Positions 19,818-46,175 of a stretch of 64,000 bases of DNA are shown here, one piece after another. The first letter of the stretch is position 1, and each line of letters begins with the position of its first letter. Under the pieces are notes generated by a model, which had not been told where the DNA came from, did no database searches, and was given only the letters and a program-made list of their open reading frames with translations. This stretch comes from Hahella sp. KA22 (GTDB lineage: Bacteria; Pseudomonadota; Gammaproteobacteria; Pseudomonadales; Oleiphilaceae). The stretch spans positions 1,629,501 to 1,693,500 of the forward strand of contig NZ_CP035490.1 in the NCBI RefSeq assembly GCF_004135205.1. Reading direction: 5' to 3'. The position numbers and the translations under genes are program-made.

Positions 19818-20309
19818 TCACGCCGTCAGGCGCAAATGTTTAATGAAGTATGAGTTAGCGGTGCTGACGAAGCCTTTGGAGCACAGCAGATCCGGATGCA
19901 CGATGGGAATGGATTGGCCATCGTGGACAAAGCCGGAGATCAGCGCCTCCCGCCACAACGGGCGTTCGTTAGCGTTAAATGCTTCGAACTGGTCGTCACT
20001 GATCTCCACTTTCACTGGCGCATTACGGGTTTCCAGCGCGATATAGCCGTTTTCCTGGTTGGCGGCGGCGCGCAGCACCACTACATTCACGTGTTCGTTG
20101 CTATTGCCGGGACGCAGACGAAACACCGGCACCACATGCCCCATCCACTCCACGACATGCGAGCAGCTTGGCGCGGAAGTCGGCAAATCCTGCACTTCCA
20201 CATCTTGCAGATATTCGCAAAGCGTATCAGCGACAAAGGCGATGCTCTGGCGCTCGCCAGCGTCAGCTAACCAAACGAACATTTTGAAATTGGAATTGGG
20301 GGAGTTCAT
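19818..20309 (-). CDS. Divergent CheW-like protein (last gene of chemosensory operon)
   Basis: A 163-residue protein of which only the middle resembles CheW: IAFVADTLCEYLQDVEV, HVVEWMGHVVPVFRLRP (the CheW I-type loop, ..G.v.Pv..L..) and ISGFVHDGQSIPIVHPDLL. I chose ATG 20309 over a GTG at 20327 because AAGG lies ten bases before it. It overlaps the end of the preceding gene by 47 bases. Position suggests an adaptor joining the ChpA-like kinase to a receptor or another output. The match is weak by eye and a structure comparison would be needed to fix it. Confidence 0.65.
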   Translation of the reverse strand: MNSPNSNFKMFVWLADAGERQSIAFVADTLCEYLQDVEVQDLPTSAPSCSHVVEWMGHVVPVFRLRPGNSNEHVNVVVLRAAANQENGYIALETRNAPVKVEISDDQFEAFNANERPLWREALISGFVHDGQSIPIVHPDLLCSKGFVSTANSYFIKHLRLTA

Positions 20310-20748
20310 AGCGTAATGCCTTCTCAAAGTAGTCGATCAGTTGATGGGCGCTGGTGTAACACTCCCAGCCGGTGTTGTGGCGCAGGACGCCTTCGATCGG
20401 ACTGGAGCCGACCATGAAGTCCGGCAGGCGACGCGGTCGGTGATTGGCGCGCAGCTTATAAATAGCGCGGCAGGACAGCGCCAATGCCGGTTCGGTTCCG
20501 CTTTCGGGGCTGCATATCAATGCGGCGCGGGAATCGCCGCCCTGCAGTCCTGGCTGGGGAATGAACCCTTCGCGAAATCCGTAGACGGGATAGAGCTCTC
20601 CGTTAAAACGGATGCATGGAATATGTTCTATATCCAGCACTTCTTCCTTTCCCGCCAGATAGAGAATGTCGCTGGCGGGCAGATACAAGGTCCTGCCCGT
20701 GACGACCAGTGAGTAATACGCGGTTAAGCTCGACTTTTCTCCAATCAT
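20263..20748 (-). CDS. Divergent CheW-like protein following the CheA homologue
   Basis: A 161-residue protein with the CheW pattern: YYSLVVTGRTLYLPASDILYL at the start, then IPCIRFNGELYPVYGFREGF, where the second half of the beta-barrel carries GELYPVYG in place of G.v.Pv.dL. It has nothing else recognisable. The ATG overlaps the stop of the kinase gene by four bases (ATGA), and its end overlaps the next CheW-like gene by 47 bases, so all three are tightly coupled. It probably acts as an adaptor beside the kinase; this is inferred from fold resemblance and position. Confidence 0.68.
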   Translation of the reverse strand: MIGEKSSLTAYYSLVVTGRTLYLPASDILYLAGKEEVLDIEHIPCIRFNGELYPVYGFREGFIPQPGLQGGDSRAALICSPESGTEPALALSCRAIYKLRANHRPRRLPDFMVGSSPIEGVLRHNTGWECYTSAHQLIDYFEKALRYELPQFQFQNVRLVS

Positions 20749-23700
20749 GTCAGCAACTCCCTGATGGTATCCATGAGCTCGTTGTCGTTGTAGGGCTTCG
20801 TGGCGTAAGCCGTCACCCCGGCCTTGTGGGCCAGACTACGATGTTTTTCGTGGCTGCGTGAGGTCAGCATAACCACAGGCATGTTGGCCCAGTCCTGCTG
20901 CTGACGCAGGTGTCGGGTCAACTCCAGTCCGTCCATGCGCGGCATTTCCATATCCACCAACAGCAGGTTGGGGGTGATGTGCCGCAGTTTCTCGACTGCG
21001 TCCAGGCCATCGCTGGCGGTGACGACTTCAAAGCCACAGTCCTGCAGCAGCTGCTTCAGGGTGCTGCGGACGCTGAGTGAGTCGTCCACCACCAGTATTT
21101 TGGGGGAATCAACCTGGCTTTCGGTGATGATGTGAGCGGTTTGATAAGCCTGTTTGGATTGGTTCTGTTGCAACAGATCTGAAAGGTTCAGCACCGGCAC
21201 CAGCGAGCCGTCGCCCAGGATGGTCAGGCCGAAGACGCCGCGCAGACCGGGAATCAGTTTGCCCGGCGCCCGCACTACCAGCTGCTCGCCGGTGAGCAGC
21301 ATGTCCACGGCGATAGCCACGGTGCGCTCGTTGAGCTCGGCGATTACCACCGGCTTGCCGGCGCCTTGCGGCGCAGGTTGCCCATACAGACGCTGCGCCA
21401 GATCGATATAAGGGTAAAGCTGACCGTCGTACTCCAGATAGGGCTTGCCAGCCACCTCTTCCAACTCGCCAGTATGAGTCGGCAGTATTTGCTTCAGCAC
21501 GGCGGTGGGTAGAGCGAAGCGTTGTGCGCCCACCAGCACCAGCAGCATATATTGGGTGATTTCTTTCACTGGCACCCGGACCAGCAGACGGCAGCCGCCT
21601 TCGCCATCGAAACTGAAGCGGACCGTGCCGCCGAGCAGTTCAACCTGGCTACGTACCGCGTCCATGCCAATGCCGCGGCCGGATAGTTGCGTGGCTTTGT
21701 CTCGGGTGCTGAAGCCTGGGAGCCAGACCAACTGCGCCAGAGACTGATTGTCAGGACGTCCGCCGTCGGCTGGCAGCAGGCCGCGTTGCTTGGCTTTCTC
21801 GTAAATAGTGTCGAAGTCGAGGCCGCGACCGTCATCGCTCAGGCTGATCTCCAGGAAACGCCCGTCCTGGCGGTAGTTCAGCCTGATTGAGCCCTGTCCG
21901 GATTTTCCGGCGTCGAGACGGCTTTGTTCGTCTTCGATGCCGTGGTCGACAGCGTTGCGCAGCAGGTGCATCAGTGGGTCGGCCAGTTTTTCCACTAACT
22001 CCCGGTCCACCTGAATGTCTTCGCCGACAATGGTCAGGTCCGCCAGTTTGCCGGCAGCGCGACAGGCTTGACGCACGCAGCGCTGCAGACGGCCGCTCAG
22101 TACTTGCGCGGCGACCCGTTGGCGTGACAGCAATTGGTGCTGCAAGGTGTCGATATGACGATGCTGCTGGCGCATCAGCGCATCCATCATCGCCAGTTGG
22201 TCCTGCAGCTTCTGATTCAGCTCGCGTACGTCGGCGATCGCCTCGAACAACTGGTGGGAGCAGCGATGCATGTCATCGTAGCGGTCCATTTCCAGCGGAT
22301 CGAGATCCTGCGCATGCTCGCTGTCCGGGCGCAGTTTGCGCGCCATGCTGCGGCTGTCGATCAGGCCTTCCAGTTCCAGGCGGGTTTCGTTCAGACGGGT
22401 GTCGTGGCCTTTCATATCAAAGCCAGTGAGCTGCACGCGCTTGTACAGTTCCTGCGCCTGTACGGTGTTGATGCTCATCTCTTCCGCCAACTGCAGCAAC
22501 TGCTCCAGGCCGGCGTTGTCCTGCGGCGCCGCAAACTGTTGCTGTGCGGGAGCGGCTGAGGCCTCTTCCTGTGCGGGCGCAGTCGGCGCGCGTTCCGCGG
22601 CGTTGTCGCGGGAGGGCAGCGTCACCACTTTGTCATCCGCCGATGTGGCGTCGACGTTAGTGGCTGCATGATGCTCCTGCAGCGCCGCCCAGGCGGCCTC
22701 GGCTTTTTCTGGAGAGCGCCAGTGCACCAAAGCGTTGAGCAGGGGGAGGGCGTCTTCCGGCGGTTGATCCCGTCCCAGCAGGTGGTCAATCATGCTGCTG
22801 ACGCAATCCGCGGCGCTGAGCAGCATGTCTTTCATCTCTACACTCCACTCCGCCTTGCCGTCGGCCAGGGCTTCAAAGATCTCCTCCATGGCGTGGCTGA
22901 TGTTGGCGACGCCCTTGATGCCGATCAGGTTGGCGGCGCCTTTCAATGTATGGCTGGCGCGCTGGGCCTGTTGCAGGAAGGCTTTCTTGTCAGATAAGTC
23001 TCCATGCAGGGAGGACAGTGCGTGGAAAAGCGCATGAGTATGGTTGGGCGAATCCAGCAAAAACGCCTGGAATACCTCCTGGTTAGCGCCGTCAGACGGA
23101 ATCAGAGAGATATCATCAGGCGTTAACACGGCGTCTTCCGCTGTTTCCTCCATAAACTCGTCGTCGCTGAGCTGGAAGTCCACCAGGTTTTCCAGAATCG
23201 CTTGCTGCGTCTCTTCGTCCAGACGTTCGCCCCAGGTTGCGTCGTCGATAAACTGCATCAGACACAGGCAGCTTTCTTCAGACGCGCCGCTTTGCAGATA
23301 TTCGTGCAGCAAGGCGGGCCACTGTTCCAGTAAATCCGCCAGCTCCGGGTCCACCTGGTCGAGGGATTGCAGGCGAATCGCCACCATATCGAAAAGCAGT
23401 TGCAGGCCGGACAGTCCCAGATAGGCGCAGGTTTCGCCCAGGGTTTGCAGCAGCTCGCAATAACAATGACGGGCTTTGATGGAGTCCCGCATTTTTTCCG
23501 CCTGCTTGGCGAACTCCGGCAGCAGGGCGGCGGTTTCCTCCCACAGCGAAGCCAGGATTTCCTGGTGAGATTCGGGAAGATCCGCGGGGGGCGTGAAATC
23601 CGAAAGGTCGAACGTTATTTCGGGTTCCTCTTCCGTAACTTCCGCCACATCCATCGCCGGCAAGGTGACGCCGAGTTCTGCCGCAATGTCGACGAAATCT

Positions 23701-24200
23701 TCTTCATAGACTTCCGCGACCAGCTCGTCGGCGTTGTCCGTTTCAGTTTCCGTTACTTCCATCGCGGGGATAGTCTCGGCGGAAGCGTTTGTGTCCGCTA
23801 CGGCGCCCTCTGGTTGTGACGCGCTGTAGTCATTCCAACTTTCGGGACCGGCGGTGTTTTGCTGCGCTTGCAGTGATAATTGTTCTTCCGCCAGGGGTTC
23901 CAGTCTGTGCAGCCAGTCGATGATGGACCAGACCTTTTTCGCCTCGACGGGGAAATTCGGCATGGTCTCATTGCTTCGCGGATCTTTGGGGCCGTCGCTG
24001 GCGATGTTCGCATACAGGCGTTGCAGGCGCGCCTGCAATTCCGGCATGGCCGCCATCTCCAGAGCGTCATTGACGTTTTCCAGAGCGGCGAAGACTAATT
24101 CCGCATCGACGGTCCGTTGCGTCGCCGCCACATCCTCCAGTTCCGCAGTAAAGGTGCGGATGAGTTCGACGGTGGGTGAAACAGGGTCTTGCTTGTGCAT
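20745..24200 (-). CDS. ChpA/PilL-like hybrid chemotaxis histidine kinase (CheA type)
   Basis: A 1151-residue cytoplasmic CheA-type kinase. Residues ~1-360 contain helical, acidic sequence including what looks like an Hpt fold without its histidine (~210-300; LLQTLGETCAYLGLSGLQ). The functional Hpt is at ~375-495 with His417 in ASHTLKGAANLIG. A Pro/Ala/Gln linker (~515-560) and a helical dimerisation segment (~600-690) follow. The HATPase has the N-box HLLRNAVDHGIE (745-756), G1 DDGRG (789-793) and G2 GRGIGMD (841-847). A CheW domain (~880-1012) and a receiver (~1033-1151) with phospho-acceptor Asp1083 in LLVDMEMPRMDG complete it. The order matches ChpA/PilL of Pil-Chp systems, but with one active Hpt instead of several. 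It is expected to phosphorylate the two receivers encoded upstream in the operon. Confidence 0.93.
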   Translation of the reverse strand: MHKQDPVSPTVELIRTFTAELEDVAATQRTVDAELVFAALENVNDALEMAAMPELQARLQRLYANIASDGPKDPRSNETMPNFPVEAKKVWSIIDWLHRLEPLAEEQLSLQAQQNTAGPESWNDYSASQPEGAVADTNASAETIPAMEVTETETDNADELVAEVYEEDFVDIAAELGVTLPAMDVAEVTEEEPEITFDLSDFTPPADLPESHQEILASLWEETAALLPEFAKQAEKMRDSIKARHCYCELLQTLGETCAYLGLSGLQLLFDMVAIRLQSLDQVDPELADLLEQWPALLHEYLQSGASEESCLCLMQFIDDATWGERLDEETQQAILENLVDFQLSDDEFMEETAEDAVLTPDDISLIPSDGANQEVFQAFLLDSPNHTHALFHALSSLHGDLSDKKAFLQQAQRASHTLKGAANLIGIKGVANISHAMEEIFEALADGKAEWSVEMKDMLLSAADCVSSMIDHLLGRDQPPEDALPLLNALVHWRSPEKAEAAWAALQEHHAATNVDATSADDKVVTLPSRDNAAERAPTAPAQEEASAAPAQQQFAAPQDNAGLEQLLQLAEEMSINTVQAQELYKRVQLTGFDMKGHDTRLNETRLELEGLIDSRSMARKLRPDSEHAQDLDPLEMDRYDDMHRCSHQLFEAIADVRELNQKLQDQLAMMDALMRQQHRHIDTLQHQLLSRQRVAAQVLSGRLQRCVRQACRAAGKLADLTIVGEDIQVDRELVEKLADPLMHLLRNAVDHGIEDEQSRLDAGKSGQGSIRLNYRQDGRFLEISLSDDGRGLDFDTIYEKAKQRGLLPADGGRPDNQSLAQLVWLPGFSTRDKATQLSGRGIGMDAVRSQVELLGGTVRFSFDGEGGCRLLVRVPVKEITQYMLLVLVGAQRFALPTAVLKQILPTHTGELEEVAGKPYLEYDGQLYPYIDLAQRLYGQPAPQGAGKPVVIAELNERTVAIAVDMLLTGEQLVVRAPGKLIPGLRGVFGLTILGDGSLVPVLNLSDLLQQNQSKQAYQTAHIITESQVDSPKILVVDDSLSVRSTLKQLLQDCGFEVVTASDGLDAVEKLRHITPNLLLVDMEMPRMDGLELTRHLRQQQDWANMPVVMLTSRSHEKHRSLAHKAGVTAYATKPYNDNELMDTIRELLT

Positions 24201-24231
24201 AGACGGAATCCATCCTGGTTAGTGGTTGCGG

Positions 24232-24249
24232 GCGCTCCGGGTGGAGCGC
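24232..24249 (-). other. Stem-loop between receptor and kinase genes
   Basis: GCGCTCC (24232-24238) pairs with GGAGCGC (24243-24249) across a GGGT loop, in the 131-base gap between the receptor stop and the kinase start. No T-run follows on the minus strand, so it is more likely an mRNA-stabilising or processing element that sets the receptor-to-kinase ratio than a terminator. Confidence 0.4.
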
Positions 24250-24331
24250 GCCAAACATCAGGTTTAAACAGCAACCTTTTCCCGGCGGCCGGCGCATCTT
24301 GCGATAACGCCAGCCGCAATCCTCCTACTTC

Positions 24332-26293
24332 CTAGCTGGCCTGCTTGAGGCGGCCCGGCTCTTCTTTCGCTGGGGCGCCGGCGCTGGGAATCATCAGCTT
24401 GCTTGGCGCAGAGGCGCTGGTTTCCAGCGACTCCGTGGACAGCTCCGGTATCCGGATATTGGTGGATACGGAAGCCGGCAAGGTGAACAATTCCACCGTT
24501 TGTTGCAGTACGCCAGAGGCGGTGCGCAGTCTTTCTGTGTGCAGGGACTGGCGTTTCAACTCCATGTCGGTGACGCGGGTGCTGGCTTCGATTTCGCCGG
24601 TCTGTTGACACACACTCTGGGTTTCTTTGGCCTGGGCCAGAGAGTTCTGCGCGATCTTCTCTACCGCTGTTACCAGTTCGCGAGTCGTCTTCTGCGTTTC
24701 CTGCATCTGAGAACCGGCCTGTGTGGCGCGTTTGGAACCATTGACCACCTGGGTGATACTGTTGTTCATGGTGTCCACCGCATCCGCCGTTTCGGTCTGG
24801 ATGTTGCGAATCAAGCTGCTGATCTGGGATGTGGCGTTACGTGAGCTTTCCGCCAGACGCTGTACTTCGTCCGCAACCACCGCAAATCCGCGACCGGCTT
24901 CACCTGCCGCCGCCGCCTGCATACTGGCGTTCAAGGCCAGTACGTGCGTACGTTCCGCGATGCTGTTGATGATGTCGATGATGCCGCTGATCTCCAATGA
25001 ACGTTCTGACAGGCGCTTGATGCGTTTTTCTGTTTCGCTGATGGAGTCGCGAATCTCGTCCATACTCTCGACGGTATTTCCTACCGCTTCATACGCTTTG
25101 TCAGTGGAAGAAGAAGCGCTTTGCGCGATCTGGTTACAGGACTGACACCATTTGGCGATTTGCGCCATGTGTTTGGCCACGCCATCCAGTTTCTGGATAG
25201 TTTGCTCGATCAGTTTCCGCTCTTGATCGGCGACGCCGACAACCTTGCGGGTCTGCTCATCCACCATGACGCTGGAAGCGCTGACCAGATTACTGACGTA
25301 ACGGATTTTGCCCAAGGCTTCAGACGTTTCCTTGGTAACCAGGTTCAAGGCGTCCGCGACCGGCCCAGTGATGTCTTCGCGTACAGTCAGTTTGGTGGTG
25401 AGATCGCGATCGCTGAGTTTGGAGGTGCCTTCCAGCAGCTCGATAACCGAGTTGTTGAGGACTTCGTTCTCTCTTTCGATGCGAATCAAAGTGGCCACTT
25501 TCTCGTTCAACAGCTGGTCGAGGGCCTGACCCAGAGTCACCAGCTCGTCGGTGCCGGTGAGCGCGGTGCGGGCTTCGGAATCGCCTTGCTTGACCTTGTC
25601 CACGGTTTCCGCGATGACGTTGACCGGACGCAGGATGGAGCGACGAATGTACTGCGACAGACCGATAGCGCCGCCCAGGCTCAACAGGATGATGGCGGAG
25701 CCGGCGATCAGGGCGATGTTCAATACGCCTTCAGAGGTTTCAAATGCGACCTGCGCTTGTTGGGTCAATTGGTCTGCATAAGCAGTGGAAGCATCGTTGA
25801 AGGGGCCGATGAACTCAGACAAGTCGTTCAACAGGAACAGTTCCAAATCGGCGCGGGACTGGTTGCCGCCCATGGCTTTGAACTGATCGAAGGCTGAGAA
25901 TACGCCGGCGACGGTTCTCTGCATGTCGGTGAAGCCGGACTGTTGTTCGCCGCCCTGGGAGGTCGTGGAGGCGCTCAAAGCCTGCCAGTCCGATTCAAAC
26001 TGCTTGCGGGCCAGCGCCAGTTTGGCGTCGGCGTCCGCCCAGGTGACCACACCGGTGTTCAGGCTGTTGATGGTTTCCACCATGCCTTCCTGCAGGGTGT
26101 TGATCAAGTGCGTCAGTCGTGATGTTTCGTTGACCTGGTTGTGCAATTTCTCGGATGAGTTTCTTGCATACGTCAGGGCGAAGAAGGCCAGAGATCCGAT
26201 GACCACCAGCGTTAACGCCATAACCAGCGTTTGCGACAGCAGTCGTTGTCCGACGCTGAGTTTGCTGAGAGAAAAAGTACGGTTCAATTTCAT
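24332..26293 (-). CDS. PilJ-like methyl-accepting chemotaxis protein
   Basis: A 653-residue transmembrane receptor: short N-terminal cytoplasmic tail, membrane segment ~21-41, periplasmic domain ~42-190 (helical, with LINTLQEGMVETINSLNTG), membrane segment ~191-211, HAMP ~212-265, a second HAMP-like or helical region ~270-325, then the signalling domain. The kinase-contact tip is around 445-485: IAERTHVLALNASMQAAAAG followed by EAGRGFAVVADEVQRLAESS. THVLALNASMQA is the version I associate with PilJ-type receptors rather than the classical TNLLALNAAIEA. There is no C-terminal CheR-binding pentapeptide and the operon has no cheR or cheB. The binding protein encoded just upstream is the natural candidate to present ligand to its periplasmic domain. 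Confidence 0.92.
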   Translation of the reverse strand: MKLNRTFSLSKLSVGQRLLSQTLVMALTLVVIGSLAFFALTYARNSSEKLHNQVNETSRLTHLINTLQEGMVETINSLNTGVVTWADADAKLALARKQFESDWQALSASTTSQGGEQQSGFTDMQRTVAGVFSAFDQFKAMGGNQSRADLELFLLNDLSEFIGPFNDASTAYADQLTQQAQVAFETSEGVLNIALIAGSAIILLSLGGAIGLSQYIRRSILRPVNVIAETVDKVKQGDSEARTALTGTDELVTLGQALDQLLNEKVATLIRIERENEVLNNSVIELLEGTSKLSDRDLTTKLTVREDITGPVADALNLVTKETSEALGKIRYVSNLVSASSVMVDEQTRKVVGVADQERKLIEQTIQKLDGVAKHMAQIAKWCQSCNQIAQSASSSTDKAYEAVGNTVESMDEIRDSISETEKRIKRLSERSLEISGIIDIINSIAERTHVLALNASMQAAAAGEAGRGFAVVADEVQRLAESSRNATSQISSLIRNIQTETADAVDTMNNSITQVVNGSKRATQAGSQMQETQKTTRELVTAVEKIAQNSLAQAKETQSVCQQTGEIEASTRVTDMELKRQSLHTERLRTASGVLQQTVELFTLPASVSTNIRIPELSTESLETSASAPSKLMIPSAGAPAKEEPGRLKQAS

Positions 26294-26342
26294 GATAATG
26301 CTCCTGCTTATCGAGCCTGTAAAACCCGTTGCTTCATGCCAT

Positions 26343-27554
26343 TCAGAACAATCTGGCCAATTGCGAGCCTTCTATGGGGAGGTAGGACTTGTTGTTGAAG
26401 TAGGTCATCGTCACCAAGTCCGACCCCTGATTGTCGCCGCGGAAGTCGAGGGCGACGCCGCCGATGTTGAACTCCGCGTTGCGAGTGGCGCGCACAAAGC
26501 TTTCCCGGGTCAGGTCGCCTTTAATGCTTTGCATGATGGCCACGAACATCTTGCCGACGATATAGCCTTCCAGGCTCACTACGTTCAGGCGTTCGCCCAG
26601 GGCGGATCTGGCTTCTTTGATGATCGGCAGATCGGATTCCAGATCAGGCACTACTTGGGTCAGGATGACTTTGTCCGTCACCCCGAAACGGTCCAGGGTG
26701 TCGCGCAGGTTTTCCGCGCCGGTGAAGGATACCGCGCTGATCAACCAGTCTTCGCCACGTTGTTTGGAGTAGGCGGCGAAACGGCCGATGGCGTTGTAAG
26801 TGCCGACAGTAACCACCAGGCGACAGCGACTGTTACTGGCTTTTTCCCAGTCTTTCAGAGACTCGAAGCCGGCGCGGGAAGTCAGGGTGTTGCGTTGATA
26901 GACGCCGACAGGGCCGATGCCGTTGCGTTCAGGGGAGTCGCCGGATTTGGCCAGGATAGTGTCCAGTTTTTCCACGATGTCGCGGGAGCGAACATTGTTT
27001 TGCAGGGCCAGCTTGATGCCTTCCACTCCCGCCATGCCGTAGGCGTCGTTTTGTACGTAGGCGCAGATCTCGGACGCTTGCAGGCCGGCGCGGAAACCTT
27101 GTTCGATTACCTTGGCGGTTTCCTGCACATAGCTGGCGCGGAAGTTGATAACGTCGCCGATGCCGGGACGCAGCAGACCTGCGCCGGTGAAGAAGCCGAC
27201 GGCGGGCACTTTGTTATCGGCGAGGATAGGCAGCGCCACCTGTGCGGTTGGGGTGCCGACATTGCCGATCATGGCGAACACGCCGTCCCTGATCAGACGG
27301 TTGGTCTGCTCAACGGTGAGGTCCGGGGTGTATGAATCGTTGAGGGTGACGTACTCAAGGCGTCTACCCTTGATATTGACGCCTTCGAACGCCGCGAGCA
27401 CGCCGTCGCGCATGTTAAGGCCCAGACCGCGGGACTGACCTTCCAGGTCCAGTACGCCGCCGACGACAATGCGATCTCCATAGACGCCGGGTGATTGTGC
27501 GGCGACAAGTTGGCTCAGGGCCAGACCGAATAAGAGTGAGATGGTCTTTCTCAT
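26343..27554 (-). CDS. Leu/Ile/Val-type periplasmic binding protein inside the chemosensory operon
   Basis: A 403-residue protein with a signal peptide (MRKTISLLFGLALSQLVAAQ) and a type-1 periplasmic binding fold (Peripla_BP_6): IVVGGVLDLEGQSRGLGLNM, then the first-lobe motif VFAMIGNVGTPTAQVALPIL and the hinge region KVPAVGFFTGAGLLRP. This family binds branched-chain amino acids, amides, urea and similar small molecules. No ABC permease or ATPase is nearby; it sits 49 bases before the receptor gene and inside the che operon. That makes a sensory role (ligand-loaded binding protein docking on the receptor) more likely than transport. The ligand cannot be read from the sequence. Confidence 0.9.
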   Translation of the reverse strand: MRKTISLLFGLALSQLVAAQSPGVYGDRIVVGGVLDLEGQSRGLGLNMRDGVLAAFEGVNIKGRRLEYVTLNDSYTPDLTVEQTNRLIRDGVFAMIGNVGTPTAQVALPILADNKVPAVGFFTGAGLLRPGIGDVINFRASYVQETAKVIEQGFRAGLQASEICAYVQNDAYGMAGVEGIKLALQNNVRSRDIVEKLDTILAKSGDSPERNGIGPVGVYQRNTLTSRAGFESLKDWEKASNSRCRLVVTVGTYNAIGRFAAYSKQRGEDWLISAVSFTGAENLRDTLDRFGVTDKVILTQVVPDLESDLPIIKEARSALGERLNVVSLEGYIVGKMFVAIMQSIKGDLTRESFVRATRNAEFNIGGVALDFRGDNQGSDLVTMTYFNNKSYLPIEGSQLARLF

Positions 27555-27733
27555 GTTATCCTCCCATGGGACTCCTTTTAATAACGCTTCCGAAGTGGGT
27601 TTTTGGGCGTAGCCAACCCTCTCCGGTCCTGACTTTCCCGGAAATTCCGTTTAAGCAACCAGGGTTCAGCCTGCGCCTTGAGGGGCGGATGTTTACTGCT
27701 ATCGCTGACAGGCTTGTCTATCGGGGGTAAGGC

Positions 27734-28354
27734 TTAACTCGTGCTCAGCATATCGGTCAGCCTCCTTTTGAATGTTTCCAGATTCCATTCACACCAAATG
27801 CCGTTCTGTCTGTAGACCGCATTGACGCAGGCCATCAGAGCGTTGGAAAGGGGCGGGGGCTGAGTCATGCGCTCATCCGCCGTCATCATCAATTTGTTGG
27901 GAAAACGACGCACTTTAATGGCGAAGGATTCCTGCCCCTGATCGAAATACAACAGGTAAGAGGGGCTGGCCCGCTGCACGACTTTGCGTTGCGGCGCGAC
28001 GGCTTCCGCGTCCTCGCGCAGGCCGAAAAATATCTCCAGGTCGACAACCGGCGTTACCTGGCTGCGGACGTTCACGAAACCGCTCAACCACTTGGGAGCG
28101 TAGGGGACCGGGCAGATTTCCGGGGACTCCAGCAGCTCCTTGTAGCAGTCCTCGCGAATCAGCAGGCCCAGGTTGCCCTGATCAGCTGTTTCCGCGTCGG
28201 CTTCCTTGACGGCCAGCCGCAGGGCGAACCATGCGGTGGCCTGGTTTTCGCGGACTTCCTCCCGGGTCTCCGCGTTAATTTGCCGGAGCAGGGCGAATGC
28301 TTCGGAAGGCCGCAGTATTCGCTTGCTCTCTACCGGGATTGACACGCTGTTCAT
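27734..28354 (-). CDS. CheW/PilI-like adaptor protein
   Basis: A 206-residue protein with a CheW-like beta-barrel in residues ~40-165: the adaptor signature WLSGFVNVRSQVTPVVDLEI (..G.vnvRg.v.PvvdL) is well kept, followed by PSYLLYFDQGQESFAIKVRR. The N-terminal ~35 residues (ILRPSEAFALLRQINAETRE) resemble PilI-type extensions. It should link the receptor to the kinase. The start ATG is 28 bases after the stop of the CheY-like gene; the 179-base gap to the binding-protein gene holds no clear signal. Confidence 0.88.
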   Translation of the reverse strand: MNSVSIPVESKRILRPSEAFALLRQINAETREEVRENQATAWFALRLAVKEADAETADQGNLGLLIREDCYKELLESPEICPVPYAPKWLSGFVNVRSQVTPVVDLEIFFGLREDAEAVAPQRKVVQRASPSYLLYFDQGQESFAIKVRRFPNKLMMTADERMTQPPPLSNALMACVNAVYRQNGIWCEWNLETFKRRLTDMLSTS

Positions 28355-28382
28355 TGCGTCTCACCTCGTCCCTGAATCGGCT

Positions 28383-28745
28383 TCAGGCGTAGCTGTGGAG
28401 TTGACTGATGATTTCTTCATTTTTGTAAGGCTTGGACACCAACGCCTTGGCGCCTTGCTTGGCCGCCCAGATGTGGTCTACCTTCTGGTTTTTGCTGGAG
28501 ACGAAGACCACGGGGATTTTGGACAGCTCAGGGTCCTGGGAAATTTCCCGGCAGGTGCTGAATCCATCCATGTCTCCCATGATGATGTCCATCAGAATCA
28601 GGCTGGGCTTTTCTTTGCGCGCCTTGCTGATGGCTTCTTCGCCGGAACGGGCGGTCACCGTTTGATAGGCGGCGCCGGAGACGATCTGCTCCAAATGTTT
28701 CAGATCGGTTTCGCTGTCATCGACGATAAGTACTTTCTTGTTCAT
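28383..28745 (-). CDS. Single-domain response regulator (PilH/CheY-like)
   Basis: A 120-residue receiver domain: the acidic pair in VLIVDDSETD, phospho-acceptor Asp53 in LILMDIIMGDMDG, the switch Ser/Thr in VVFVSSKNQ, and Lys in ALVSKPYKNEEI. Its size and place second in the operon match PilH of Pil-Chp systems. It may be an output regulator or a phosphate sink. It starts three bases after the stop of the gene above it, indicating coupled translation. Confidence 0.93.
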   Translation of the reverse strand: MNKKVLIVDDSETDLKHLEQIVSGAAYQTVTARSGEEAISKARKEKPSLILMDIIMGDMDGFSTCREISQDPELSKIPVVFVSSKNQKVDHIWAAKQGAKALVSKPYKNEEIISQLHSYA

Positions 28746-28748
28746 AGG

Positions 28749-29510
28749 TTATCTCCCTAGAGCTGCTAATTGTGGAAATATGAGCGTTTCCGTTTTGGTT
28801 GCGCCGAGATAACGGCGAACGACTTCCGCCAGTTCCCGGTCTTCCGGGGGCTTGGTGATATAACCGTCGCACCCGGACATTTTTGCTTTGACGCGGTTTA
28901 ACGTGGATGATTTGCTGGTCAGCATCACCACTTTGGTTTTCACTTGTTGCTTGATTGAGCGGCAAGCCTGATAACCATCCATGCCAGGCATCATCACATC
29001 CATGAACACCAGGTCGTAGCGGCAGTCGCGCACTTTCAGCAGCGCTTCCTCACCGCTTTCCGCCACATCCACACCGGCTTCGAAATCCAGGATTTCGTGC
29101 AACTTCTGTTTCATGAAGGTGCGCACCGGCAAGTTGTCGTCGACAACGAGAATGTTCTTTACGTGGGTCTTCGCTTCTTGTTGGTCCGATTGGGTAGCCT
29201 GCTGCAGTGCTTCGCGCAGGCGACGAAAAATCAGGGGACGGGTCAGATGAATCGCGTCGTCGTCCACAGGCTGTTTGCTGCGGCTGATGACGATGGTCTT
29301 TTCGAAATGGGTGGCGGCCTTCATTCGTTGCCAAAGGCTGCGGCTTTCTGGCTTATCCACATCCACCAGTAGAATCTGACCTTCCATGGCGCCGGGCTCG
29401 CTGGCCAGCTGGAAGTTGCCGAACCAGGTTTCGTCCAGATGAGACAGGTTCCGAAGCAGGACCAAGTCTTTCTCCATTAGCCCCACATGCGAAATAATAA
29501 TCTTGTCCAT
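28749..29510 (-). CDS. Response regulator with N-terminal receiver-like domain (PilG-like position)
   Basis: A 253-residue two-part protein. The C-terminal part (~117-240) is a normal receiver: ILVVDDNLPVR, Asp171 in YDLVFMDVMMPGMDG, VVMLTSKSS, and Lys in CDGYITKPPED. The N-terminal ~105 residues also have a receiver-like pattern (IIISHVGLMEKDLVLLR, ILLVDVDKPESR, then HLTRPLIFRRLREALQQ where the usual KP is RP). This suggests a decayed, non-phosphorylated receiver. It is the first gene of the operon, where Pil-Chp systems have pilG, but PilG itself is single-domain. The extra domain could recruit the regulator to a specific partner; that is inference. Confidence 0.85.
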   Translation of the reverse strand: MDKIIISHVGLMEKDLVLLRNLSHLDETWFGNFQLASEPGAMEGQILLVDVDKPESRSLWQRMKAATHFEKTIVISRSKQPVDDDAIHLTRPLIFRRLREALQQATQSDQQEAKTHVKNILVVDDNLPVRTFMKQKLHEILDFEAGVDVAESGEEALLKVRDCRYDLVFMDVMMPGMDGYQACRSIKQQVKTKVVMLTSKSSTLNRVKAKMSGCDGYITKPPEDRELAEVVRRYLGATKTETLIFPQLAALGR

Positions 29511-29611: not shown

Positions 29612-29640
29612 ATTATTGGAATGAATGTTAAATTTGTCAA
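29612..29640 (-). promoter_or_regulatory. Sigma-70 promoter of the chemosensory operon
   Basis: On the minus strand TTGACA (29640-29635) is followed after exactly 17 bases by AATAAT (29617-29612). This matches the -35 consensus fully and the -10 in five of six bases. The start site would be near 29605, giving a ~95-base leader before the ATG at 29510. Confidence 0.7.
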
Positions 29641-30020: not shown

Positions 30021-31634
30021 TTAGTGAATCGCGCTCTTGGCCAGTTGGCCGATGTCAGTGTGGTGCAGCAGCTTGGAGAAGCCCTCAGTCGCGCTGGCGG
30101 GACCGAACGCCATCACCGGCACTGGCGTGCTGGTGTGAGTGCCGGTAGCCCAGACGACGTTCTGGCTTTCGGACATGGCGCGACCCAGCAGGTCGTGACG
30201 CACTTCCTGGCCGTACACGTAGAACGACTTGAAGTCATTCACTTTCGGGAACATCTTGGCGCTCAGGTAGTCGTGGCCCTCAACCTGATAGTAGTTAGGC
30301 TCTTGCTCCAGAACCGCCTTGGCCTGCTCCAATGTAATAGGGAAGGCGCTGTTGGCGTTAACCAGCTTCATCAGGGCTTCTGGAGACGGCTTGCCGCCAT
30401 CGAACTGGGCGAACAGGTCAGGGAAGCTCATTTTTTGCTGATACAGTTTGCTCAGGGTCTCGAAAGAGCCGAAGTTGAAGTTAGGCGCGTAAGCCGCTTC
30501 TTTGAACGCTTCGCCAGTCAGCTTCTCGCCTTCCGGGATGTTGGAGCGCGAGTAGCTGAAACCAAAGCCGCCGGTTTCATGGTCGGCGGTGATGATGACC
30601 AGCGTGTCCTGACGGTTCTTCACCCACTCGTAAACGTAGTTGATGGTTTCGTCGAACTTGAGCATCTCATGCAGCATGGTGCCTGCGTCATTGTCGTGGC
30701 CCGCCCAGTCGATCTGGCCGCCTTCAATCATCAGGAAGAATCCCTTTTCGTTGCGGGACAGAATGTCCAGGGCCTTCATGGTCATTTCTTTCAATGACGG
30801 CTCAGTGCGCTTGGGATCGTCTTTAGTCTGAGTGTAACGGATGCCGTTCATCATGCCGGAGTAGTTGAACAGGCCCAGCAGCTTGTCGCCTTTGGCGGCG
30901 TCCAGCTGGTGGCGGTTGAACGCCAACTGGTAACCCTTGGTCTCCGCTTCCGCCAGCAGGTTTTTGTCGTCCTTACGCTTGGACTTCAACTGCACGGCGC
31001 CTTCAGTTTGCTTCTCCAACTGCTGATACAGCTCGCCTTTGTCGTTCACGGACTTGGGCAGCCAGTGACGCAGACCGCCGGACAGCATGACGTCCACCTC
31101 GTCGGCCAGCATGTCTTCCGCGATTTGGTTCTCCATGGAGCGATGCGCGCGGTGAGCGGCGAAAGACGCAGGCGTGGCGTGAGTCAGACGGGTGTCGGAA
31201 ACCAGACCGGTGGATTTGCCCATACGCTTGGCTTTTTCCAGTACGGTTTCAACGTGGTTGCCCACTTTGTCCACGCCGATGACTTCGGATGGCGCAGGTT
31301 CGCCAGTCGCCAGCTGTGTGGCGGAACAGGCGGAGTCGACAACCAGGTTATAAGCGGGGGTATGGCGGGATAAACCAATCACGCCGGCGTCCATAAACTT
31401 CTGCATGCCGGTGAGTTGACCGTGGTAAATGGAATCCGGCGCATTGATGGCGTATTCGTGCAACAAGCCGATCTGCTGCGGCCCCATGCCGTCGCCGATC
31501 ATCATGATCACGTTTTTAACTTCGGTTTCTTTGGCGGTGGCTTTTTTGTCCATAGTGGACTGACATCCCGCCATCAAGGCCGAAATTGCTGCTGCGCTGG
31601 CCAATAATTTCCAAGAATGTATTCTTCTTAGCAT
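30021..31634 (-). CDS. Alkaline phosphatase, lipoprotein
   Basis: A 537-residue PhoA-superfamily enzyme that releases phosphate from monoesters outside the cytoplasm. The signal sequence ends in the lipobox LMAGC (Cys ~23), so it should be lipid-anchored. Metal-binding MIGDGMGPQQ, the nucleophile serine in VVDSACSATQLATG, the zinc ligands in GGQIDWAGHDND and ITADHETGGFGFS, and the late His in TGTHTSTPVPV are all present. It stands alone with its own terminator. I looked for a Pho box upstream and found no convincing one. Confidence 0.94.
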   Translation of the reverse strand: MLRRIHSWKLLASAAAISALMAGCQSTMDKKATAKETEVKNVIMMIGDGMGPQQIGLLHEYAINAPDSIYHGQLTGMQKFMDAGVIGLSRHTPAYNLVVDSACSATQLATGEPAPSEVIGVDKVGNHVETVLEKAKRMGKSTGLVSDTRLTHATPASFAAHRAHRSMENQIAEDMLADEVDVMLSGGLRHWLPKSVNDKGELYQQLEKQTEGAVQLKSKRKDDKNLLAEAETKGYQLAFNRHQLDAAKGDKLLGLFNYSGMMNGIRYTQTKDDPKRTEPSLKEMTMKALDILSRNEKGFFLMIEGGQIDWAGHDNDAGTMLHEMLKFDETINYVYEWVKNRQDTLVIITADHETGGFGFSYSRSNIPEGEKLTGEAFKEAAYAPNFNFGSFETLSKLYQQKMSFPDLFAQFDGGKPSPEALMKLVNANSAFPITLEQAKAVLEQEPNYYQVEGHDYLSAKMFPKVNDFKSFYVYGQEVRHDLLGRAMSESQNVVWATGTHTSTPVPVMAFGPASATEGFSKLLHHTDIGQLAKSAIH

Positions 31635-31796: not shown

Positions 31797-32585
31797 TTAT
31801 TTCAGATACTTGGCCGTCAGCGCGCTCATATACTCAGGGTCATCCCGCAGACGTGAAATCTCTTTCCAGATCGCGGTTTGTTCTGCTGTAGTGAGGGGCG
31901 AGCCTTTGGCGAAAGTAAGATGGTAGGATTTACTGCTGAGGGGGTTGAGGTCGGATTTCAGTTTGGTTTTGTATTCCGCCTGCCGCATCAGATGCTGGTA
32001 GACCTCTGGGGTGGTGATCACCGATCCGCTTCCCAGTTTGGCCAGCTTTTCGATGTTGCGCAGTTCCCCGGTCTGGCTTTCATAGATGCGCCGGTTGGAC
32101 TCCCGCAGCGTGCTGACGATGGAGTAACCGCGGGCCACGCGCACTGGCTCCGGCAGTGTATTGAGATCGCCTTTGTACTCGTATTTGGTGTCGCTTGACA
32201 CCACCACAATATATTCCACTTGCGCCACCCGTGAGGCGGAACGCTGCGCGGTGGCTGCGTCGGCGGGGTAGTTCATATATTCCGCGCGCTCTTTTTTATA
32301 GGAGGCGGTGACGACGCCGTGCACCAGATTGCCGCGGGCGGAATCCAGACATTCCTGCCACAGCATGGGTTTGAATTCGACTTTGTAGCCCAGGCTCTCG
32401 GCGGCCTTTTTCACGATGTCCACATGCATGCCTGCGGCTTCGCCTTGTTCGTCTACGTAGGTGAACGGGTACCAGTAGTTGTTGTCGCTACAGAAGACGA
32501 TGTCTGTTTGCGCGGCGGCGAGATTGGAAAGGAAGAGAGTAGTAAGAAAAAGCGCCAGCGCTCTGAAGGCATTGTATGTCGACAT
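31797..32585 (-). CDS. Orphan extracellular solute-binding protein, family 3
   Basis: A 262-residue secreted protein with a signal peptide (to ~AAAQ) and the SBP_bac_3 fold: WYPFTYVDEQGEAAGMHVDI near the N-terminus and VARGYSIVSTLRE in the second lobe. Relatives bind polar amino acids or serve as sensory proteins. No permease or ATPase genes are adjacent, so it may share a transporter encoded elsewhere or feed a receptor. Several gammaproteobacteria of this type carry many such orphan copies. The ribosome-binding site is AAGGAAA. About 160 bases separate it from the phosphatase gene. Confidence 0.85.
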   Translation of the reverse strand: MSTYNAFRALALFLTTLFLSNLAAAQTDIVFCSDNNYWYPFTYVDEQGEAAGMHVDIVKKAAESLGYKVEFKPMLWQECLDSARGNLVHGVVTASYKKERAEYMNYPADAATAQRSASRVAQVEYIVVVSSDTKYEYKGDLNTLPEPVRVARGYSIVSTLRESNRRIYESQTGELRNIEKLAKLGSGSVITTPEVYQHLMRQAEYKTKLKSDLNPLSSKSYHLTFAKGSPLTTAEQTAIWKEISRLRDDPEYMSALTAKYLK

Positions 32586-45407: not shown

Positions 45408-46175
45408 CTAGTGTTGCAGGATCTGGCTGAGGAACAGTTTGGTCCGCTCGTTCTGTGGATTGTTGAAGAACTCGTGCGGCTCATTTTCCTCAATGATCTG
45501 ACCGGCGTCCATGAAGATAACCCGGTTGGCCACGGTTTTCGCGAAGCCCATTTCGTGGGTGACGCAGATCATGGTCATGCCGGATTCCGCCAGTTCGATC
45601 ATGGTGTCCAACACCTCTTTGATCATCTCTGGATCGAGCGCCGAAGTAGGCTCATCGAACAGCATGATTTCAGGGTTCATACACAGACTGCGGGCGATCG
45701 CCACACGCTGCTGCTGACCGCCTGACAACTGTCCAGGATACTTATGCGCCTGGTGCGGAATCTTAACTTTCTCCAGATACATCATCGCATTCGCTTCCGC
45801 TTCTTTCTGAGGCACCTTGCGCACCCAGATTGGAGCCAGCGTACAGTTCTGAAGCACCGTCAGGTGAGGGAACAGGTTAAAGTGCTGGAACACCATCCCT
45901 ACTTCCCGACGCACGCTGTCGATGTTCTTAAGGTCGTTGGTCAGAGGGATATCCTTAACGATGATATCCCCTTGCTGGTGCTCTTCCAGACGGTTGATGC
46001 AGCGGATCATGGTGGACTTGCCCGAACCGGAGGGGCCGCACACAACGATACGCTCGCCCTTGTACACTTCCAGATTGATGTCTTTCAGTACATGGAACTT
46101 ACCGTACCACTTGTTGACGCCGCGCAGGTGGATCATGCTCTTGCGGGAATCTGCGCTGTTAGTATTCGTATTCAT
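45408..46175 (-). CDS. aapP: General L-amino-acid ABC transporter, ATP-binding protein
   Basis: A 255-residue ABC ATPase of the polar-amino-acid group. Walker A is [10 protein letters not shown], the ABC signature [15 protein letters not shown], Walker [14 protein letters not shown], and the H-loop CVTHEMGF. It powers import by the AapQ/AapM permeases encoded just upstream (21 bases from aapM). Operon order aapJ-aapQ-aapM-aapP matches the rhizobial/marine type. Confidence 0.95.

Follow-up and report, generated by a model that had tools for sequence, protein, structure and literature searches.

The window analysed here, a stretch of 64,000 nucleotides from the marine bacterium Hahella sp. KA22 (contig NZ_CP035490.1, positions 1,629,501 to 1,693,500), carries an eight-gene chemosensory operon on the minus strand that runs from 29510 to 19818. 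Its open reading frames (ORFs) encode two response regulators (RR1 and RR2), a CheW, a periplasmic binding protein (PBP), a chemoreceptor (MCP), a CheA-REC kinase and two CheW-like proteins. All eight genes, and the order in which a preliminary description had read them from the sequence, were recovered, with the domains assigned by a Pfam profile search of the window ORF products. We consider it likely that the PBP is a dedicated co-receptor of this Pil-Chp-related system, and probably not part of a transporter, and that it docks on the membrane-distal tip of the receptor. The observations behind this reading are that the PBP gene is linked to the receptor gene, that no Liv-type permease is found nearby, that the receptor tip is conserved together with the PBP and that the PBP and the sensor domain are predicted to associate.

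In the proposed mechanism, the PBP would be secreted to the periplasm, where it would bind a small molecule, the putative ligand, between its two lobes. It would then dock directly on the distal tip of the four-helix sensor domain of the receptor, at the loops around T84/W85 and R147-D157. Docking may change the activity of CheA and hence the phosphorylation of RR1 and RR2, which would be the presumed direction and output of signalling.

Linkage of the binding protein gene to the receptor gene

A search with the PBP retrieved 71 loci (numbered L below; genomes are numbered G). In 46 of these the PBP gene is directly upstream of the MCP gene, with a median gap of 52 bases (range -4 to 299). The 46 include L090, a rearranged operon where the PBP precedes a receptor that has a different sensor domain. 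The claim that the binding protein belongs to the operon is supported, and in the rearranged operon its gene stays beside that of the receptor. The receptor is elsewhere in the operon in two loci (L071 and L079), where the PBP is at the operon's 5' end. No receptor was recognised in the other 23 loci, 14 of which are cyanobacterial by record title. The nine that remain are three cut contigs (L062, L083 and L106), one broken frame (L104), three weak matches (L105, L107 and L108) and two SAR324 loci, one of which (L070) has a divergent four-helix receptor next door. Tandem PBPs also occur, two in L054 and three in L057.

The PBP is present in all seven searched genomes of the window's genus (its own genome included) and is rare in an even sample of the class (six of 369 genomes at E 1e-60). 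The order of G131 has it in 25 of 63 genomes, at 26 places that all adjoin this receptor type (lists compared by eye). The operon arrangement is beyond chance, because it recurs in many loci of other bacteria, mostly gammaproteobacteria; this wide recurrence rules out chance or artefact as its source.

The cyanobacterial loci (L078, L084, L089, L091-L100 and L103) encode the same PBP family. Their PBP adjoins a membrane protein with pentapeptide repeats and Peripla_BP_4 in all 13 loci tested (all but L103), and two inspected cyanobacterial PBPs have a lipobox-like signal.

The window PBP has a signal peptide without a lipobox (by eye) and passes the Pfam gathering score for Peripla_BP_6 (89.3 vs 31.7 bits). 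Two cysteines, C164 and C244, are present in all 82 rows from receptor loci (window included, copies kept) and in all 18 cyanobacterial or orphan rows, with four further rows uncounted. The closest solved structure by sequence is 4kv7 (E 2.5e-69), a putative Leu/Ile/Val-binding protein of Rhodopirellula baltica, which, from the alignment, lacks both of these invariant cysteines. The Leu/Ile/Val label given to the PBP is not secure, because amino acids, aromatic acids and urea all appear as ligands in the titles of its structural neighbours. Peripla_BP_6 domains occur in other settings in the same genome (6.96 Mb, one contig). For example, L035:7719-10454 has one on a large serine/threonine kinase ORF (Pfam), and L036:6912-9569 appears to be the same kinase-type ORF, judged only by a PF13458 match and by how its N-terminus reads.

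Most Peripla_BP_6 proteins are parts of transporters. Transporter genes were sought with six ORFs taken from the liv region of this genome as queries (two permeases, two ATPases, the binding protein and one further ORF; E 1e-5). The preliminary description had stated that no ABC permease or ATPase lies near the PBP gene. This was confirmed in the window, where no permease matched the liv queries and the sole match is an ABC ATPase at 45459-46136, with 27% identity and 16 kb off. A pairing with transporter genes in homologous operons was also looked for, on 50 PBP-bearing loci of over 9 kb (46 distinct), with a median of 7.6 kb for the shorter of the two flanks of the PBP. None of these loci gave a match to a Liv-type permease, and in eight of the 50 an ABC ATPase matched distantly (26-34% identity). 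The PBP was therefore rejected as a transporter component alongside Liv-type genes.

The receptor tip and the predicted association of sensor domain and binding protein

The receptor consists of a first transmembrane segment, a four-helix periplasmic sensor domain of ~155 residues, a second transmembrane segment, a HAMP domain and a signalling domain (transmembrane limits by eye). The preliminary description had called it PilJ-like. The name fits the cytoplasmic half, which over residues 271-609 shares 35% identity with a separate PilJ encoded in this genome, but not the sensor domain, since the periplasmic part gives no PF13675 (PilJ domain) match even at a limit of E 1; the separate PilJ matches PF13675 at 2.5e-18. 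The sensor domain is of the Tar-type four-helix kind, as judged from orthologues: that of L045 clears the Pfam TarH cut-off (26.5 vs 25.2 bits) and a model of that of L055 has four long helices. The window domain itself has only a sub-threshold 4HB_MCP_1 match (0.051). A profile search of solved structures with the sensor domain returned no chemoreceptor, the best matches being unrelated (E 0.011 and worse), and fold comparisons of the L055 model, which barely probed the sensor part, returned binding-protein matches only. By topology, the loop between helices 1 and 2 and the starts of helices 2 and 4 are predicted to form the membrane-distal end. In the L055 model, the equivalent of T84 is in the helix 1-2 loop, that of W85 is at the start of helix 2 and the residues of the second tip loop are at the start of helix 4.

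Where the PBP is encoded, the tip residues are conserved; in its absence they are mostly eroded. This was examined on a tree of receptor cytoplasmic parts (sensor domain excluded) with 83 rows, 58 with the PBP (PBP+) and 25 without it (PBP-). Of the 114 receptors collected, five lack a match to the sensor-domain model (the first receptor of L051, those of L071, L079 and L090 and the broken frame of L239), and 26 of the other 109 rows were left out of the tree. These are L224 and L232 (one place, cut by the contig end beside the receptor), copies of longer loci (L226-L230, L027, L189 and L190), 13 rows whose cytoplasmic parts duplicate others, and three (L069, L077 and L223) with a cytoplasmic part under 250 residues. 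L058, titled Aquificaceae, has a receptor cytoplasmic part equal to that of G443 and was counted in the Thiotrichales rows. W85 and L152 are both kept in all 58 PBP+ rows and in three of the 25 PBP- rows. Among seven independent pairs, an average of 5.6 show the tip changing together with the PBP and 0.0 show the opposite (median p 0.031, range 0.031-0.125).

To avoid a choice of columns, every receptor column was ranked by the PBP-dependence of its conservation. The top five columns are L152, T84, N156, D157 and R147 in all 83 rows, and L152, T84, D87, R147 and E151 in the 48 Thiotrichales rows (25 PBP+ and 23 PBP-); all of them are within residues 79-90 or 143-158. None of 300 label shuffles per set places five columns in the tip loops, the maximum being three. 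Taken column by column, the independent pairs are 5.6 to 0.0 for L152 (median p 0.031), 5.6 to 0.2 for T84 (median p 0.0625) and 3.9 to 0.0 for both N156 and R147, and among 109 control columns the best net is 3.0 and none reaches the values of L152 or T84. For columns at least 90% conserved in PBP+ rows, 98% is retained in PBP- rows in the cytoplasmic domain (95 columns) and 61% in the sensor domain (four columns).

An AlphaFold model was made of an artificial chain in which L055 is read through from the PBP into the sensor domain (58 rows, 14 paired), and it has a pLDDT of 88.8 and a pTM of 0.82. A control of the same design, with the L039 CheW read through into the PBP (54 rows, 13 paired), has a pLDDT of 84.1 and a pTM of 0.62. 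We estimate that two well-folded, mutually unplaced domains would give a pTM of about 0.6, and that 0.82 needs an inter-domain error near 3 Å. The earlier suggestion that a small molecule is presented to the receptor by way of the PBP thus gains from a predicted association above that of one control and from tip residues that track the PBP, while the docking itself is predicted only.

Two other gene pairs in the collection (L033:4168-7557 and L034:8362-12057) have Peripla_BP_6-like genes beside receptors whose long periplasmic domains match no Pfam family, hinting at more binding protein-receptor pairs.

Relatives without the binding protein and rival explanations

The PBP is a module that comes and goes, because many homologous loci stand without it. 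The sensor-domain model has matches at E 1e-6 in 28 of the 369 genomes of the class sample. Eight of these genomes match strongly (E below 1e-45), namely the six with the PBP plus two without it (G234 and G295), whose operons encode a PhnD-type binding protein at their 3' end. There are 51 sensor-domain places in 49 genomes in the order of G131, versus the 26 PBP places. The PBP state changed at least seven times on well-supported branches and 10 times on the best tree, where gain and loss are not separable. Six weak matches to the sensor-domain model (L196 and L198-L202) proved to be other receptors and not this operon.

The PhnD-type genes of the PBP-less relatives are at L194:1946-2983 (-) and L195:14027-14869 (+), with PF12974 matches of 1.8e-60 and 6.8e-62. 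Beside the L195 gene, Pfam recognises a Ras-like GTPase and a member of the Roadblock/LC7 family, and a further protein there resembles the N-terminal part of RR1; look-alikes are present at L194 by eye. A link of the window operon to such genes was dropped, as no GTPase homologue was found in its own genome by a search that had no positive control and shows little. A free-standing, secreted Cache-like protein of ~190 residues is encoded between CheW and the PBP at L047:9268-9843, L049:8210-8788, L050:3445-4056, L190:6914-7489 and L192:6284-6853; those of L047 and L190 match dCache_1 at 2.1e-09 and 8.4e-05, both below Pfam's cut-off, and the others were assigned by likeness. At L250:2563-3732, genome G444 has a second, PBP-less receptor copy with an adjoining divergent SBP_bac_3 gene (5.9e-20). 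Finally, two ABC ATPases, two permeases and a 561-residue dipeptide-type binding protein (by eye) are at L241:9194-14772 (-), upstream on the same strand of a PBP-less operon.

A number of observations weigh against the PBP being a dedicated co-receptor. We inspected 29 loci, 27 of them fetched for an apparent lack of the PBP. In 24 of the 29 no PBP is present and CheW adjoins the receptor directly. Two do have the PBP (L256 and L257), and three are not judgeable or lack CheW (L232 is cut, L239 has a broken receptor frame, and L250). The expectation that the binding protein always travels with the receptor therefore fails, given these 24 homologous loci, which goes part of the way towards refuting the preliminary description on its own terms. 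No PhnD-type gene was found in L232-L257, L197 having only been read by eye and other substitutes not systematically searched. The PBP also occurs with more than one sensor fold: that of the L071 receptor is of dCache type, and the L090 sensor matches neither that nor the four-helix kind (the sensor of L079 was outside the sensor-domain scan).

The tip analysis has similar weak points. Three PBP- rows (L234, L238 and L250) retain both W85 and L152, W85 alone has a median p of 0.5 in the independent-pairs test, and the well-supported independent pairs number only seven. The label shuffles ignore relatedness, the limits of the tip loops were drawn after the motif had been seen and ranks 6-10 of the column scan fall outside the loops. 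The mirror-tree signal is weak, with a PBP-sensor partial correlation of 0.11 (given the cytoplasmic part) or 0.22 (given CheA) in 41 operons. The model consists of one artificial chain with one control and gives pLDDT and pTM only, so that the docking site is not visible in it. Lastly, a distant transporter could escape the permease search, which relied on two query permeases and a cut-off of E 1e-5.

What else might explain these patterns? The PBP could serve an ABC transporter encoded elsewhere and be co-transcribed because the same nutrient matters, with the receptor sensing something else directly. The usual role of Peripla_BP_6 proteins would fit this, as would the 11 PF02653 permease matches and the complete liv cluster elsewhere in the genome. 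However, the 50 loci (46 distinct) have no permease match, the presence of the PBP tracks residues of the receptor tip, and in the 13 tested cyanobacterial loci the PBP is beside a membrane protein and no liv product matches there. We therefore regard this explanation as quite improbable. It is also unlikely that the receptor responds chiefly to a directly bound ligand or to another cue, while the PBP merely tunes or scavenges the ligand without receptor contact. The erosion that accompanies absence of the PBP is most marked, among all receptor columns, in the two tip loops, and the pTM of 0.82 versus 0.62 in the control argues for contact, although the 24 PBP-less loci do retain the receptor backbone and five loci (L047, L049, L050, L190 and L192) have added a free-standing secreted Cache-like protein.

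An explanation that overlaps both of these is that the tip erosion reflects clade history, or a changed direct ligand in the lineages that lost the PBP, and that the predicted association is a modelling artefact. The small number of PBP state changes (7 on starred branches to 10), the fact that two PBP- clades supply 12 of the 25 PBP- rows and the dependence on one artificial-chain model with one control would all be compatible with it. Nevertheless, the independent-pairs test allows for relatedness and no control column out of 109 reaches L152 or T84, and the tip pattern holds within the Thiotrichales, which makes this explanation fairly unlikely as well. We therefore continue to favor a PBP that acts as a co-receptor at the receptor tip.

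Features of the operon and comparison with known systems

The coordinates of the operon genes, the tip loops and a possible promoter are listed in Table 1. Intergenic spacing is less than 50 bases, or the genes overlap, except for a 179-base gap before the PBP gene and a 131-base gap before the CheA gene. The N-terminal domain of RR1 was considered as a degenerate receiver, which has no support (hhalign probability 0.3). A Pfam search with CW2 found no match. The true start of CW3 may be further downstream than the TTG listed. The promoter pattern scan found two sites in comparison with a mean of 4.0 in shuffles, and such matches are no rarer by chance.

Table 1. Positions in the window of the operon genes, receptor tip loops and possible promoter.
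Feature	Position	Strand	Remarks
RR1, 253 aa	28749..29510	-	Response_reg 5.8e-25, residues 120-231; N-terminal ~115-aa domain outside recognised families
RR2, 120 aa, single receiver, PilH/CheY-like	28383..28745	-	Response_reg 7.4e-25
CheW1, 206 aa, coupling protein, PilI-like position	27734..28354	-	CheW 6.9e-10
PBP, 403 aa	26343..27554	-	Peripla_BP_6 5.1e-25
MCP, 653 aa	24332..26293	-	MCPsignal 7.5e-35, HAMP 5.8e-08
Tip loop 1, receptor residues 79-90 with T84, W85	26024..26059	-	PBP-dependent conservation
Tip loop 2 and helix 4 start, residues 143-158 with R147, L150, L152, N156, D157	25820..25867	-	PBP-dependent conservation
CheA-type hybrid kinase, 1151 aa	20745..24200	-	Hpt, HATPase_c, CheW, Response_reg (Pfam)
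CW2, divergent CheW-like, 161 aa	20263..20748	-	Homologues fill the same slot of other operons
CW3, divergent CheW-like, 169 aa	19818..20327	-	CheW 1.4e-05; TTG start listed
Possible operon promoter, TTGACA-17-AATAAT	29612..29640	-	11/12 consensus matches, before RR1, pattern scan

A second solitary periplasmic binding protein (SBP_bac_3, 8.3e-14) is encoded in the window at 31797-32585 (-), separated from the operon by an alkaline-phosphatase-like ORF at 30021-31634 (named by eye). A possible output is a hybrid of receiver and Ser/Thr kinase, encoded after the final CheW-like gene of the operon at L046:10802-12199 and L189:674-2071 (same contig).

The best paralogue of CheA in its own genome is the kinase of a Pil-Chp-like locus (a 2743-aa open frame), with 339 bits vs 224 for the next. 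This paralogue belongs to a separate Pil-Chp-like cluster (L151) whose receptor has PF13675, and so the eight-gene operon appears from sequence comparison to be a second, Pil-Chp-related system in this genome. The preliminary description had suggested an output through the two response regulators rather than flagellar CheY or pili; pilus control by the operon may be possible because the best paralogue of its kinase is the Pil-Chp one.

The canonical Pil-Chp kinase has many Hpt domains, whereas one Hpt was recognised in the 1151-aa kinase of the window; the Pil-Chp-like kinase of the same genome has 2725 aa. The common gene order of Pseudomonas aeruginosa Pil-Chp (PilGHIJK-ChpABC), i.e., two regulators, CheW, receptor and CheA-REC, is found in the window, with the PBP as an extra gene between CheW and the receptor and with a Tar-type four-helix sensor instead of a PilJ domain. 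The CheR and CheB methylesterase families (PilK/ChpB type) have no Pfam match among the eight operon products. A 2025 Pil-Chp review raises indirect PilJ sensing through solute-binding proteins as a possibility and notes that the fold of the P. aeruginosa PilJ domain turned out to differ from the prediction (PMC12632253).

Co-receptor docking is known for a few receptors and was not found described for the Pil-Chp-like sensing class. Maltose-binding protein (MBP) is thought to dock on the tip of Tar, to which the proposed docking of the PBP can be likened. The binding proteins of the Tar-MBP and Tsr-LsrB pairs are transporter parts and are encoded with transporters. In these two Escherichia coli pairs and in CtpL-PstS of P. 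aeruginosa, the ligand-loaded binding protein acts on the sensor domain of the receptor, and the sensor of Tar and Tsr is a four-helix bundle (PMC6321045); through its orthologues, the window receptor is of the same kind. PstS is likewise a transporter part encoded with its transporter (PMC6829864). In contrast to Tar-MBP and CtpL-PstS, the window PBP is encoded with the receptor and has no Liv-type permease match nearby.

The BasB and BasT genes are neighbours, with the kinase encoded apart, and they represent a kind in which the binding-protein gene is beside the receptor gene without a transporter. The window operon is similar in that the PBP gene is beside the receptor gene with no transporter match, but BasB-BasT is an archaeal taxis system, for which we know of no Pil-Chp-like operon. 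In Halobacterium salinarum, the putative substrate-binding proteins BasB and CosB co-purify with the taxis transducers BasT and CosT, and BasT is listed for Leu, Ile, Val, Met and Cys (PMC3579733). In TorT-TorS, LuxP-LuxQ and XylFII-LytS, the structures of which are known, the binding protein is complexed with the ligand-binding domain of a membrane sensor (PMC6321045); however, these partners are sensor histidine kinases and the window partner is a chemoreceptor. No description of a Pil-Chp-like operon with its own PBP was found in the open-licence literature, and an earlier description elsewhere is possible.

In conclusion, we tentatively suggest that this PBP family may have left transport fully and now act as an interchangeable co-receptor for sensing. 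It would do so in two phyla, with a Pil-Chp-related chassis in gammaproteobacteria and, in cyanobacteria, a membrane receptor of the pentapeptide/Peripla_BP_4 type. The gammaproteobacterial slot would then be filled by one to three PBPs or by a PhnD-type protein, could gain a secreted Cache-like domain or would stand empty, and the receptor tip would evolve with the occupant. With a receptor and its candidate co-receptor in one operon, predicted contact residues and relatives that lack or swap the PBP, indirect sensing in a Pil-Chp-related system becomes directly testable, in a PBP family whose partner, from gene context, is a receptor rather than a transporter.

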